From the NCBI GenBank assembly GCA_013204605.1, contig JABMNI010000077.1:1-32471 (forward strand): a stretch of DNA of 32,471 nucleotides, in the 5' to 3' direction. The stretch comes from Ignavibacteria bacterium (GTDB lineage Bacteria > Bacteroidota > Ignavibacteria > Kapaibacteriales > Kapaibacteriaceae). Both the position numbers and the translations under genes were made by a program. Below are positions 21,316 to 26,738 of this stretch, one piece after another; within the stretch, counting starts at the first letter, position 1; each line of letters starts with the position of its first letter. A model generated the notes under the pieces. It worked only from the letters and a program-made list of their open reading frames with translations, was not told the DNA's origin and made no database searches.

Positions 21316-22815
21316 ATGAAACGTTCCCTCTTTATTCGATTTCTCGATGCCGTTGAGCGCGTTGGGAGCAAGCTGCCCGATCCGTTTACCTTGTTCGCTA
21401 TAGCGGCGGCGTTGGTGGTGGTGGTTTCGTGGTTTGCGTTTAATGCGGGCGTGTCAGTTACGCACCCGGGAACGGGCAAGGTGGTTTGGGCAATCAATTT
21501 GCTGTCACCGGAAAATATTCAGCGGATGTTTACAGATGCCGTTACCAACTTTACGAATTTTCCGCCGTTGGGTTTGGTGTTGGTTACCATGATTGGTATT
21601 GCCGTTGCTGAGCGCGGTGGATTTATTGCAGCGCTTCTTCGCACTACGGTTAGCGCAGTTCCCAAGTCATTGCTAACAGCGGCATTGGTGTTTGCCGGCG
21701 TGAATTCTAGCATAGTTGCCGATGCCGGCTATGTTGTGCTTATTCCTCTTGGGGCGGTGATTTTTGCATCCGTCGGACGCCACCCCTTGGCCGGTTTGTC
21801 CGCCACGTTTGCCGGTGTGGCGGGGGGCTTCAGTGCCAACCTGAGTGTGACTTCGCTCGATCCGTTACTCGGTGGCTTAACGCAAGCCGCCGCGCAATTA
21901 GTTCAACCCGACTATGTAGTGAGTGCCGCAGCGAACTGGTACTTTATGATTGCGTCGACGTTTTTTCTGACCATTCTCATCACTGCCGTGTGCGAAAAAC
22001 TTGTCGAACCTCGTTTAGGCGAATGGAAGGGGCTAAGTGATTCTCAAGATGCGAAGCTGAACGAAAAACTTTCCACCGTAGAGAAAAAGGGGTTGAAATA
22101 CGCGGGCATTGCGTTCGCAATTTTAATTGCCGGACTGCTTTGGATTTCCGTTCCCGAAGGTGCAATTCTGCGCGATGTAAATGGGACCCTAAAGCCCCTT
22201 GAAAAAAGTATAGTGCTGATTTTGATGTTGCTGTTTTTAATTAGTGGAATAGTGTACGCCAAGGTTACGGGGTCGGCGCGGAACGATAAAGACATTGCCG
22301 AAATGGCCGGCGATGGCATGGCCACCATGGGCGGATATATTGTGCTGAGTTTTATCATGGCGCAGTTCATCAGCTACTTTGCGTGGTCGAACCTCGGCGT
22401 AGTAACGGCGGTAAATGGGGCGCACATGCTGCAGTCATTACAATTGCAAGGACCCTTCCTACTCGTAATTTTTGTTTTAGTTGCGGCGCTCATCAACCTA
22501 CTCATCGCAAGCGCTTCCGCCAAGTGGGCCATCATGGCACCAGTGTTTGTGCCCATGTTTATGCTTATGGGAATCTCTGCCGAGTCTACCCAACTCGCCT
22601 ACCGCATCGGCGATTCATCCACCAACATGATTGCTCCGCTACTCAGTTACATCCCGCTCATCTTAGTAGCTATGCGACGTTATGTGAAGGGGGCTTCCCT
22701 GGGCACGCTGTTATCGCTCATGCTTCCGTATTCGATGGCGATGATTGTACTGTGGACACTGTTTATGCTAGTGTGGATATTGATGGGGCTGCCGCTGGGT
22801 CCGGGCGTTCAGTGA
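21316..22815 (+). CDS. AbgT-family transporter
   Basis: The 499-residue product is a polytopic membrane protein with about 11-12 helices matching the AbgT family (E. coli AbgT takes up p-aminobenzoyl-glutamate; YdaH and MtrF export sulfonamides). Family signs are the N-terminal VERVGSKLPDPFTLFAIAA (about 13-31), ERGGFIAALLRTTV (about 95-108), the GGFSANLSVTSLDPLLGGLT re-entrant loop (about 172-191), GDGMATMGGYIVLSFIMAQF (about 332-351) and the second hairpin ASAKWAIMAPVFVPMF with YRIGDSSTNMIAPL near the C-terminus. Direction of transport and substrate cannot be told from sequence. It stands alone with a 388-bp upstream spacer. Confidence 0.92.
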   Translation: MKRSLFIRFLDAVERVGSKLPDPFTLFAIAAALVVVVSWFAFNAGVSVTHPGTGKVVWAINLLSPENIQRMFTDAVTNFTNFPPLGLVLVTMIGIAVAERGGFIAALLRTTVSAVPKSLLTAALVFAGVNSSIVADAGYVVLIPLGAVIFASVGRHPLAGLSATFAGVAGGFSANLSVTSLDPLLGGLTQAAAQLVQPDYVVSAAANWYFMIASTFFLTILITAVCEKLVEPRLGEWKGLSDSQDAKLNEKLSTVEKKGLKYAGIAFAILIAGLLWISVPEGAILRDVNGTLKPLEKSIVLILMLLFLISGIVYAKVTGSARNDKDIAEMAGDGMATMGGYIVLSFIMAQFISYFAWSNLGVVTAVNGAHMLQSLQLQGPFLLVIFVLVAALINLLIASASAKWAIMAPVFVPMFMLMGISAESTQLAYRIGDSSTNMIAPLLSYIPLILVAMRRYVKGASLGTLLSLMLPYSMAMIVLWTLFMLVWILMGLPLGPGVQ

Positions 22816-22952: not shown

Positions 22953-23143
22953 CGCACTTCGCAAATTATTGGCAGCAAATGCCTGTTTGCTGCCAATAAT
23001 TTGATTATGGGTAAAACCCACGTGACATACTCCCACGTGACATACTAGACACACTATGCACGTGTTACTTGGTGACAGGCACAATACGGACTTTATGTCA
23101 GTGCGAATAGAATTCTTGTTGGGCCACTAAGCAGGCTCCATGG
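22953..23143 (+). repeat. Long intergenic repeat, copy A, with 17-bp perfect hairpin
   Basis: A 191-bp unit whose diverged second copy is at 23175-23342. It opens with a perfect inverted repeat, AAATTATTGGCAGCAAA (22963-22979) against 22986-23002, around the loop TGCCTG. The same order of blocks follows in both copies: TTTGATTATGGGTAAAA, TGACATACT, GGTGACAG, CGGACTTTA, TTGGGCCAC, AGC(A/G)GGCTCCATGG. No reading frame is kept, so it is not a gene. Confidence 0.85.
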
Positions 23144-23174
23144 CCCGACTTTCCCATTGTCAAATCTTAGATTT

Positions 23175-23342
23175 CGCACTTTTCAAATTATTGGCAGCAA
23201 ATGCCTGTTTGCTGCCAATAAGTTTGATTATGGGTAAAATCCGCCTGACATACTATGCGCGTGATACCCGGTGACAGAAACAAAGCGGACTTTACGCCGG
23301 CGCAAAAAAAAATCCGTTTGGGCCACAAAGCGGGCTCCATGG
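23175..23342 (+). repeat. Long intergenic repeat, copy B, with 14-bp hairpin
   Basis: Diverged copy of 22953-23143. The hairpin is kept with the same loop TGCCTG (23202-23207) and a 14-bp perfect stem (23188-23201 with 23208-23221). Copies A and B are separated by about 30 bp, in direct orientation, in the spacer between the convergent AbgT and T9SS genes. Confidence 0.85.
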
Positions 23343-23354
23343 GTGTAGCCCTCG

Positions 23355-23425
23355 GGCGACACGCTAGGCGACACGCTAGGCGACACGGGGGTGTGACAAA
23401 CTCGTAATTCGTAATTCGTAATTCG
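23355..23425 (+). repeat. Two simple tandem repeats at the end of the T9SS gene
   Basis: GGCGACACGCTA is repeated 2.8 times at 23355-23388 (12-bp period), and a GTAATTC heptamer is repeated three times at about 23403-23425, ending eight bases before the stop of the T9SS protein gene on the minus strand. The rest of 22848-22952 shows nothing. Confidence 0.75.
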
Positions 23426-23432
23426 CAATTGA

Positions 23433-26400
23433 CTACCTTGAAATTACTAGCGTTTCACTCCGCGAAAACCCTCCTGCAGTTATTCTAACTATGTAATTTC
23501 CGTTGCTGAGATTTTCGACGTTTAGCGAGCAGTGCCCGTTGAGGATGTGCGAAGATTTTACGATGCGACCCTCTACATTTATAACATCAACAATGGCGTT
23601 GTTGGGCGCAGTTTCTGCTGTGATTGCAACGGAAATTGATACTGGGTTTTGGCTGAATAGAATGGCGTTGCGTTGGTCTTCTTCGTCTTGCACGCCAGAT
23701 ATCGTGCCTGTTACAAACGAAGATCTTTGTGAGTAAATTCCGTGCGATGACAAATCATTGCTTCTTACATGCCAGTAGTAGCGCTTGTTGTTTTCAAGTC
23801 CGGAAATACCTGTAGTGGTGTCGGTTACATCAAAAGCAGAAGTTGTGACGGGATTGAATGTTAGGATGTTACTCAACTCAACATCGTACGAGCTAGCACC
23901 CTCTACCTTGCTCCATGTAAGTTTTACCGGCGACTCCACAATACCCTGCGCATTTGGTGCAGGTAGGATCAGAAATGGCGGAAGTAGCGATGTAGTAAAA
24001 GTCCATGCGGCTGAGAAAGCCCCCTTGCCACCTACTCCATAAGCGGCTACGCGCCAATAGAATTTTACGTTTCCTTGCGTTAGATTTCTTACCGAAGTGA
24101 GAGTGTCGCGGATGCCTTCGGCGAGTTGGAATATGGTACTGAACGATGCGTCGGTTGCTACTTCTACAGTGTACGAAACTGCGCCGTCAACTTTGTTCCA
24201 GACGAGAACTGTATCGACAGATATTCCGCGCGTGCTGTTGGGTGGTGACACTAACTGAACTGAACTTGGGGGTGGCGAAATGGAAGTGATTTTTCCTTTA
24301 AACACTCCCCTGCCATGCGTACCAACAAATATTGTTTTGTCGGAGGCGCGCGCCAGCACCATGTCCACCGGAACATTTCCAATTTCTTCTGCAGCAATTT
24401 GTTGCCACACGGTGCTGCCGCCGTTAAGCTGATTGGTTGCAAACACGCCGGTAGATGTTCCGGCTACATATACAGTTGCTCCATCCGCGTACGGTAAAAT
24501 GGCTGCCCAATTTACCGCAGGACCATCGCCGGCACCGTTCGGCTGTTGCTCCAAATTTCCCGACACCGCACTCCACGTTTCGCCTCCGTCAGTTGTGGCG
24601 TACATACTAATCGCGCCGTAATTCGAGTAGCAAACTATTGCGTGTTGCGCATTTCGCTCGTCGATGGTAACTGAGTTTGCATAAAATCCAACTGGCAGAC
24701 CCCCCGTAAGTTTTTTGGCAAGGGGCTGACCCAGATTTGCACTGTCGATTCTGTAAACATTACCAAAGGTTGTTGCGAAATACACAATGTTCGCAGGACT
24801 ATTCGATACGGCAACAGCTGAAATCAGACCTAATCCACTAGTTGAAAGAAGGCTGTCCCAATTAACATTTGTCGAATCATCTTTACCCAGTGGAATACCT
24901 GAGGCATCGTTATTGCGCCACAACATGAATCCGCCTGCGTGATACACAATGTTGTTGTTGTGAGGATCAATCACGTATGGATTGATAAACAAATAGTCAT
25001 CAGGCAACACTTGCGGATCGATTCTGGTGCGTCCAATTTCAACGCCACTTGCATTGTAAATTATTCTGCGAATTCTTCCTGTCTGCGTGGCCGCATACAC
25101 GGTGCGTTTGCCATCGGCATAATAACAATACGCGCCGTCGCCACCATTTCGTGCTATCCAATCTGATTGCGGATTGTTTGATTCAACCGACCACGTTCCG
25201 TTGTCTTGCATTCCACCCATCACGTTACTGTCGGCACTATCGGCAGTAATTGCAATGGCATAAAACTGCGTTGTGTGATAACCTTTATTTAGGCTCACCC
25301 ATTCAACCGTATCGCGCAAAATATTATCGGTTCGCATTACACCGCCATCATTTACACTGTACATCGAACTTGGATTTTTCGGATGGAACACAACGTTATG
25401 CTGATCAGGATGATGATTAGGATACGTCGGAAAATTCTCTAACGGATTAGGCAACCCATAGCCCCCTATCCATGTATTACTCGTAGCTGTTTTGAATGCG
25501 TTTGTGTTTCTGTACAGATTGGTTCCGCCAATAATTACGAGGTTGCTATCTGTTGGAGAAACTTTTATAAGCAGGTCGTAGCCGCCTTGCGAAAAGAAAT
25601 CGCCATTGCGTCCGCCGAGCAGCGGAATACTCGCCGATCTATTGTCCCACGTTCCGTTCGTATCGGCGCCGTTGCCACCTAGGTGCGAATACTTCCACAA
25701 ACTGTGCCATTGCTCTCGATCACCATCCCGCAATTTGAACACGCCCTTAGCTCCCACGCCGGGAGTTTCAGCAAGTACGAACAATCTGTCCTTTGCGCCG
25801 GCCATTCTATCAAAAACAATTCGGTTGATGTTCAGGGGCATGTCGGTTGGTGAAATGTCTTGCCAGTTAATTCCGTCGGCCGACCTAAACACGCCGTGCT
25901 TTACTGCGAACTGACCCAAGAAGCCCGTAAACGAACTAAGCGATGCATACACCACACCCTGCGGCGTTACCATCACATCGCTGAAGTAACTGTTCGAGGC
26001 CAGCGTTTGTGTAAACGTAGCACCACCATCGGTGCTGCGATAAATTCCGTTTTGCGATGTTGCCACAAATAATTCATCTGCTCCGTTAAGGGGGCTAGTG
26101 GCGACGCGCCAGTTGTAAGCGAAGGCATGGCGCGCTGGAATGCTGGGTGATATCGTGCTAGCTAGTGGCGACCAATCCTTACCACTATTCGTTGACTTCC
26201 AAATTCCATTGCCAGATATCTGCGCAGAGTTTCCGTATGATTCGCCGGTGCCGTAATACCAAATATTCGTTTTACCATTTCGAGTGTCTTGCGCAATACT
26301 CGTAACAGAATGCAATTGGTCAGGTTTTGTCTGCAGCGTCCACGTCACACCCGCATCCTCGCTCCGCCACACCCCACCCGAAACTGACCCAACTATTATC

Positions 26401-26738
26401 ACATTTACATCCGTAACATCTAGCGCCAACGTACGAGTGCGACCGCCTATATTCCAAGGTCCAACCTGCTTGAACTCACTCGTGTTTTGCAATTCGTCTA
26501 AATTATTTTTCCTGCCCAACGCACCCGGCAACGTTGCCACAAATTTTTGTGCGCGCTGCTGAATTCCCTCAGGAATGCGTCCCAGCGCAACATCTCGGTA
26601 CTTCATTTCCTCGAACGCACGCCGTGCTTGTGGGTTGACGTTTGCGTCTGACGATGGCTTGGTGGCACAACCATAAAGCCCCATTCCAACAAAAAAAATA
26701 CTTAGACAAATTTTTATAAAGGGGGCTAGGTGCTTCAT
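23433..26738 (-). CDS. Large Asp-box (BNR/sialidase-like propeller) surface protein with fibronectin-like domains and T9SS sorting domain
   Basis: The 1101-residue product starts with a lipoprotein-type signal (LSIFFVGMGLYGC, Cys24). Residues about 100-850 form a beta-propeller-like region with repeated Asp-box motifs: GGVWRSEDAGVTWT, GIWKSTNSGKDWS, GIYRSTDGGATFT, GVFRSADGINWQ and ATTDGGETWSAV. Two fibronectin-III-like domains follow (about 850-945 and 945-1030), each with a VxWxKVxGAxSYxVE...YWRV or YWHV pattern. The last ~80 residues (SQNPVSISVAITAE ... LSNGNYIVRITAGG) are a T9SS type A sorting domain. A lipobox and a T9SS domain together are unusual. Similar proteins are annotated as glycosyl hydrolases, but no catalytic residues can be named. 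It overlaps the flippase stop by 4 bp. Confidence 0.88.
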   Translation of the reverse strand: MKHLAPFIKICLSIFFVGMGLYGCATKPSSDANVNPQARRAFEEMKYRDVALGRIPEGIQQRAQKFVATLPGALGRKNNLDELQNTSEFKQVGPWNIGGRTRTLALDVTDVNVIIVGSVSGGVWRSEDAGVTWTLQTKPDQLHSVTSIAQDTRNGKTNIWYYGTGESYGNSAQISGNGIWKSTNSGKDWSPLASTISPSIPARHAFAYNWRVATSPLNGADELFVATSQNGIYRSTDGGATFTQTLASNSYFSDVMVTPQGVVYASLSSFTGFLGQFAVKHGVFRSADGINWQDISPTDMPLNINRIVFDRMAGAKDRLFVLAETPGVGAKGVFKLRDGDREQWHSLWKYSHLGGNGADTNGTWDNRSASIPLLGGRNGDFFSQGGYDLLIKVSPTDSNLVIIGGTNLYRNTNAFKTATSNTWIGGYGLPNPLENFPTYPNHHPDQHNVVFHPKNPSSMYSVNDGGVMRTDNILRDTVEWVSLNKGYHTTQFYAIAITADSADSNVMGGMQDNGTWSVESNNPQSDWIARNGGDGAYCYYADGKRTVYAATQTGRIRRIIYNASGVEIGRTRIDPQVLPDDYLFINPYVIDPHNNNIVYHAGGFMLWRNNDASGIPLGKDDSTNVNWDSLLSTSGLGLISAVAVSNSPANIVYFATTFGNVYRIDSANLGQPLAKKLTGGLPVGFYANSVTIDERNAQHAIVCYSNYGAISMYATTDGGETWSAVSGNLEQQPNGAGDGPAVNWAAILPYADGATVYVAGTSTGVFATNQLNGGSTVWQQIAAEEIGNVPVDMVLARASDKTIFVGTHGRGVFKGKITSISPPPSSVQLVSPPNSTRGISVDTVLVWNKVDGAVSYTVEVATDASFSTIFQLAEGIRDTLTSVRNLTQGNVKFYWRVAAYGVGGKGAFSAAWTFTTSLLPPFLILPAPNAQGIVESPVKLTWSKVEGASSYDVELSNILTFNPVTTSAFDVTDTTTGISGLENNKRYYWHVRSNDLSSHGIYSQRSSFVTGTISGVQDEEDQRNAILFSQNPVSISVAITAETAPNNAIVDVINVEGRIVKSSHILNGHCSLNVENLSNGNYIVRITAGGFSRSETLVISR

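Follow-up and report, generated by a model that had tools for sequence, protein, structure and literature searches.

The window, by which we mean the whole 32,471-nucleotide stretch analyzed here, is one contig (C77) of a 2.69-Mb draft genome of an Ignavibacteria bacterium in 86 contigs, the sole genome of its genus. Between two convergent genes, an AbgT-family transporter gene that ends at 22815 and a gene for a T9SS-sorted protein with its stop at 23433, it carries a diverged non-coding repeat unit in two copies, each of which contains a palindrome. The features of this region are:

21316..22815, forward strand: neighboring gene outside the feature, AbgT-family transporter (PF03806), ending 147 bp 5' of palindrome 1
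22953..23143, forward strand: copy 1 of the diverged repeat unit, with 73-77% identity to copy 2 outside the palindrome
22962..23003, no strand assigned: palindrome 1, two inverted 18-bp half-sites CAAATTATTGGCAGCAAA around TGCCTG, operator-like
23017..23046, forward strand: 15-bp tandem doubling CCCACGTGACATACT in copy 1
23175..23342, forward strand: copy 2 of the diverged repeat unit, with 73-77% identity to copy 1 outside the palindrome
23184..23226, no strand assigned: palindrome 2, half-site and centre as in palindrome 1, right half with an inserted G (AATAAGTTTG)
23433..26738, reverse strand: neighboring gene outside the feature, large secreted protein with a T9SS C-terminal sorting domain (PF18962), convergent

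The original prediction had described a diverged tandem unit of about 190 bp located between convergent genes, and both the unit and its location were confirmed. The two copies are 73% identical across 192 bp in a BLAST alignment, and their flanks are 77% identical across the 3' 96 bp. Palindrome 1 is 42 bp long (CAAATTATTGGCAGCAAA-TGCCTG-TTTGCTGCCAATAATTTG) and forms a perfect stem of 18 bp, rather than the 17 bp first proposed, around the loop TGCCTG. Palindrome 2 shares the left arm and the loop, and because one G is inserted in its right arm its perfect stem is only 14 bp, so that the identical loop and the shorter stem were as predicted. The spacing between the copies is 222 bp when measured at their 5' ends and 199 bp at their 3' ends, a difference that is partly due to the 15-bp tandem doubling in copy 1. 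Since the pair lies between convergent genes, there is no annotated promoter under its control. Short tandem repeats of 7-15 bp adjoin several palindrome units, in the window at 23355-23387 and 23402-23430 and also beside copies on contigs C39, C51 and C7. Similar arrays, often with a period of 14, are present elsewhere in the window, and the short repeats may therefore be a general trait of this genome.

BLAST searches of the genome with the repeat unit identified 11 palindromes, five pairs and one single, all of them intergenic. The members of the five pairs are 172-355 bp apart. The genome search proposed with the original prediction, for which a lack of further copies would have counted against it, thus found nine copies in addition to the window pair:

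Contig C39, positions 7635, 7990 and 15133: a pair and a single copy
Contig C51, positions 55664 and 55990: a pair upstream of a DUF6577 gene
Contig C7, positions 304 and 476: a pair close to the contig end
Contig C84, positions 11475 and 11792: a pair, one copy degenerate and of ambiguous orientation

A covariance model built from the 11 copies revealed no further copy in the same genome (next best E = 0.37). Eight of the 11 match a strict pattern, in which the half-site is CAAAT-N4-GNCA and the GNCA cores are separated by 15-16 bp; in the remaining three (the second window copy, one copy on C51 and one on C84) 1-2 outer positions differ or there is a 1-nt insertion. When the genome was searched for half-sites with up to three mismatches, each of the 22 half-sites in the 11 copies was recovered, and only one other match had as few as two mismatches. 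The same search showed 16 isolated degenerate half-sites with 2-3 mismatches, against three with the reversed pattern, which may reflect coding bias or weak sites. Outside this genome, DNA of the window unit had no match in 59 relatives, and the exact core had only three matches in 84,980 GTDB genomes, judged by eye to be unrelated. Searches for plasmid homologues of the unit and for phage homologues of the palindrome returned none that were convincing.

Different loci are similar only in the palindrome and in a few to some 20 bases next to it; the C39a and C51a copies alone share a longer stretch. Because little else matches, we regard the palindrome as the conserved unit. Its 42 bp are mostly near or above 90% identity, whereas the flanks are about 25% diverged or unrecognizable. 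In the window, the core shows 41 matches, no mismatches and one 1-nt indel, whereas some 25% of flank positions are mismatched (Fisher p = 8e-5, an approximate value with end gaps unpenalized); for core versus flank divergence in the window and C39 copies, p ranges from 3e-5 to 6e-4. The earlier observation that the hairpin is better conserved than its flanks therefore stands, and it argues for continued binding of the core. Extended outer stems are seen at C39c (L022:15073-15240), C39a, C51a and C7a, where the sequences differ and the pairing is kept (TTAGTAGTAT / ATACTACTGAC and others). This pairing exceeds that of shuffled sequences at C39a, C39c and C7a only.

The better conservation of the hairpin had initially been attributed to selection on structure, with a non-coding RNA or a two-sided transcription barrier among the suggested functions. 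An RNA hairpin or two-sided terminator between genes would agree with the very stable fold (z of -3 to -5) and with the position of the window pair between convergent genes, but several lines of evidence speak against it. No Rfam family reached its gathering score in the window. Alignment of the 11 genome copies, which had been proposed as a check for covariation, gave no case in which both sides of the stem had changed in a compensatory way; the changes are mostly one-sided and pair-breaking. In relatives, positions 7-9, 11 and 14-18 are mismatched between the arms, while either half by itself still fits the motif. The raw covariation count of a mixed alignment (A4) looked strong, but this alignment pools lineages whose half-sites differ, and the one-base gap of the 41-bp sites is misplaced in it; a symmetric protein site, moreover, yields the same signal. 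The palindromes lack a T tract, in line with the initial view that they are not simple terminators, and a terminator scan was at chance, with one weak terminator-like call against 1.1 expected from shuffled sequences; we therefore rejected an intrinsic terminator. Copies on C39, C51 and C84 lie between co-directional genes, which also argues against a two-sided barrier. With the Rfam, covariation and folding results, and with a related site on a viral contig (L093, described below) lying upstream of the inferred transcription start, we rejected a non-coding RNA as well, and we consider it most improbable that the palindromes act as an RNA hairpin or a two-sided terminator.

The gene context at C51 offers a different function. 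Its pair of palindromes precedes an open reading frame for 250 amino acid residues, with 12 bp between the end of the second palindrome and the ATG, and the product is a DUF6577 protein (Pfam PF20217, E = 5e-55). In other Bacteroidota, DUF6577 genes are usually followed by a gene for the type IV toxin AbiEii (PF08843), so that DUF6577 takes the position of the antitoxin-repressor AbiEi. The C51 gene is solitary: no AbiEii toxin lies beside it, and the gene order of a type IV toxin-antitoxin (TA) system of the AbiE type, an antitoxin gene followed by AbiEii, is not seen at this locus. The genome contains two DUF6577 genes, and the second one, on contig C4, precedes the only AbiEii gene. The site upstream of the C4 gene, which served as a control, is different, weaker and not dispersed, an indication that the dispersed sites have the C51 protein as their partner. 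At the gene-less loci (those of the window pair and of every other copy outside C51), we found neither a DUF6577 gene or remnant nor a remnant of AbiEii. Comparison of DUF6577 with the AbiEi fold gave only sub-threshold matches to AbiEi_4, sequence searches of the PDB found no relative of DUF6577, and its structure model was of low confidence and gave no useful matches.

Palindromes are associated with DUF6577 throughout the phylum. We searched 240 bp upstream of the domain and considered a palindrome unusual at p < 0.05 against 60 dinucleotide shuffles per locus. Unusual palindromes were present at 16 of 25 loci from many families (the C51 gene included), although one of them (L054) is off-position and probably unrelated; about nine of the 25 loci have no clear palindrome upstream. 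Most of the palindromes are centered 140-235 bp before the DUF6577 domain, i.e. in the promoter region. The search pattern derived from them, CAAAT-N4-GNCA-N15/16-TGNC-N4-ATTTG, matches 18 of 395 genomes of the phylum, compared with about one site expected from base composition, and the reversed pattern, used as a control, has matches in two genomes of this set. Ten of the 18 cellular sites outside the genome studied here have a DUF6577 gene directly downstream. Another four look real without being DUF6577 promoters: three are located just after higA, and the fourth is 3' of an AbiEi-AbiEii operon. Two further sites are chance matches inside der genes. At the remaining two of the 18, L076 and L077, the double-palindrome promoter of L075 is kept (83% identity over 286 bp) and the DUF6577 gene is gone. 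In one family (f32, 92 genomes), all four sites are DUF6577 promoters. Overall, the type of site found upstream of DUF6577 recurs in distant genera, mostly in a single copy. In one genus, operator-like palindromes at 1501-1541 lie directly 3' of higA antitoxin genes (L079, L080 and L086).

Operator-like palindromes also accompany DUF6577-AbiEii operons on viral contigs (L093:2040-2080 and L095:2953-2997). The L093 palindrome is perfect and has the same geometry (CTAAATAACGGCA...TGCCGTTATTTAG). A -7 box, TAACTTTG, follows 3 bp after it, and a -33 TTTG lies in its centre, 20 bp before the -7 box; by the general promoter consensus of the phylum, these two elements form a clear Bacteroidota promoter. 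With the -7 box directly after the palindrome and the -33 element in its centre, the site covers part of the promoter and is located 5' of the transcript. The L095 site keeps the GNCA-N15-TGNC geometry and differs in its outer bases. The total number of viral pattern matches is near that expected from base composition, by a rough estimate, and those on L128, L104 and L111 look real. Two IMG/VR contigs carry the same type of palindrome with no DUF6577 nearby (L128:10423-10464 and L104:12826-12866). Phage tyrosine integrase genes adjoin both, at 289 bp upstream in L128 and 11 bp upstream in L104, and the centre of the L128 palindrome is identical to that of a C84 copy.

From these comparisons of sequence and gene order, we consider it fairly probable that the palindromes are DNA operators of DUF6577 proteins that act as AbiEi-like antitoxin-repressors, and that in this genome the operators are mostly dispersed without the gene. 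The solitary DUF6577 protein encoded on C51 probably continues to bind the dispersed operators. In this model, a pair of repressor subunits would occupy the inverted 18-bp half-sites, with the GNCA cores about two helical turns apart, and binding would repress a promoter that overlaps the site, as we propose by analogy with the AbiEi and Rv2827c operators. The nine gene-less operators would be copies or remnants of the DUF6577 promoter region, around which the DNA would have drifted while the site itself stayed, probably through continued binding of DUF6577. The extended outer stems of several copies are left unexplained by this mechanism. The gene-less pairs may represent a regulon, decoys, looping sites or relics. 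A further step is possible, and we propose it only tentatively: a toxin-less AbiEi-type antitoxin may have turned into a stand-alone DNA-binding protein that has dispersed, paired operators of its own (regulatory, looping or decoy), away from TA operons.

Some of the same observations could arise if the gene-less pairs were functionless relics of lost DUF6577-AbiEii promoters, either young or gene-converted, and neither bound nor selected. The L076 and L077 loci are examples of a promoter left after gene loss, and at the gene-less loci no remnant of DUF6577 or AbiEii is recognizable, which agrees with relics whose former gene is long gone. Neutral relics, however, should drift evenly, and the contrast between the 42-bp palindrome and its strongly diverged flanks disfavors them; in addition, a DUF6577 gene is kept only at C51 and at C4, where the site is of another kind and not dispersed. 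We thus find functionless relics unlikely. As for a self-spreading small palindromic element, MITE- or REP-like, that incidentally contains a DUF6577 operator, the original prediction was right in that the palindromes form a dispersed repeat family, and scattered copies with little shared flank, the inverted outer arms TTAGTAGTAT / ATACTACTGAC in some copies and the presence of two Y1 transposase genes in the genome would suit such an element. However, the palindrome is near neither Y1 gene, and we therefore rejected a REP/RAYT system. No target-site duplication and no common ends were seen among the copies, both the window pair and the C39 copies represent duplications that share long flanks, and the mostly single sites upstream of DUF6577 in distant genera are likewise at odds with self-spreading, which we regard as quite improbable.

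The proposed DUF6577 operators have clear parallels in known systems. In the promoter of its own gene, AbiEi of Streptococcus agalactiae recognizes two inverted repeats of 23 bp separated by 3 bp, and Rv2827c of Mycobacterium tuberculosis is known to bind two such repeat pairs (PMC7319586). AbiE operators are likewise inverted repeats over the promoter of an antitoxin-repressor (PMC7319586) and have a similar span (23+3+23 bp versus 18+6+18 bp here), and the two repeat pairs of Rv2827c resemble the two palindromes at C51 and at L075. However, the sequence and the protein family (DUF6577) differ, and most sites in this genome are without an antitoxin gene. The DUF6577 (PF20217)-AbiEii (PF08843) operons of Bacteroidota share the palindrome type, CAAAT-N4-GNCA with cores 15-16 bp apart, but elsewhere each gene has a single site or two neighboring ones, whereas here there are 11 and the matching gene is toxin-less. 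REP/BIME elements with RAYT are also short, intergenic, dispersed and often paired palindromes; in contrast to them, no RAYT gene carries the palindrome here, the copies are few and the link to DUF6577 promoters is clear. To our knowledge, dispersed operators are not known for AbiEi of Mesorhizobium huakuii. In an abiEi mutant of that species, the expression of 116 genes was changed, a precedent for wider regulation by an AbiEi-type antitoxin, and the part of the description considered here contains no mapped binding sites (PMC8436566).

With these sites, the uncharacterized DUF6577 family would gain a defined operator motif, and therefore a ready binding test, and the AbiE-style operator would be extended to a large part of Bacteroidota. 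The findings suggest that operators of antitoxins can persist after their operons are lost or exceed them in number, and they bear on how TA repressors may turn into general regulators or be titrated by decoy sites, including those on phage contigs.
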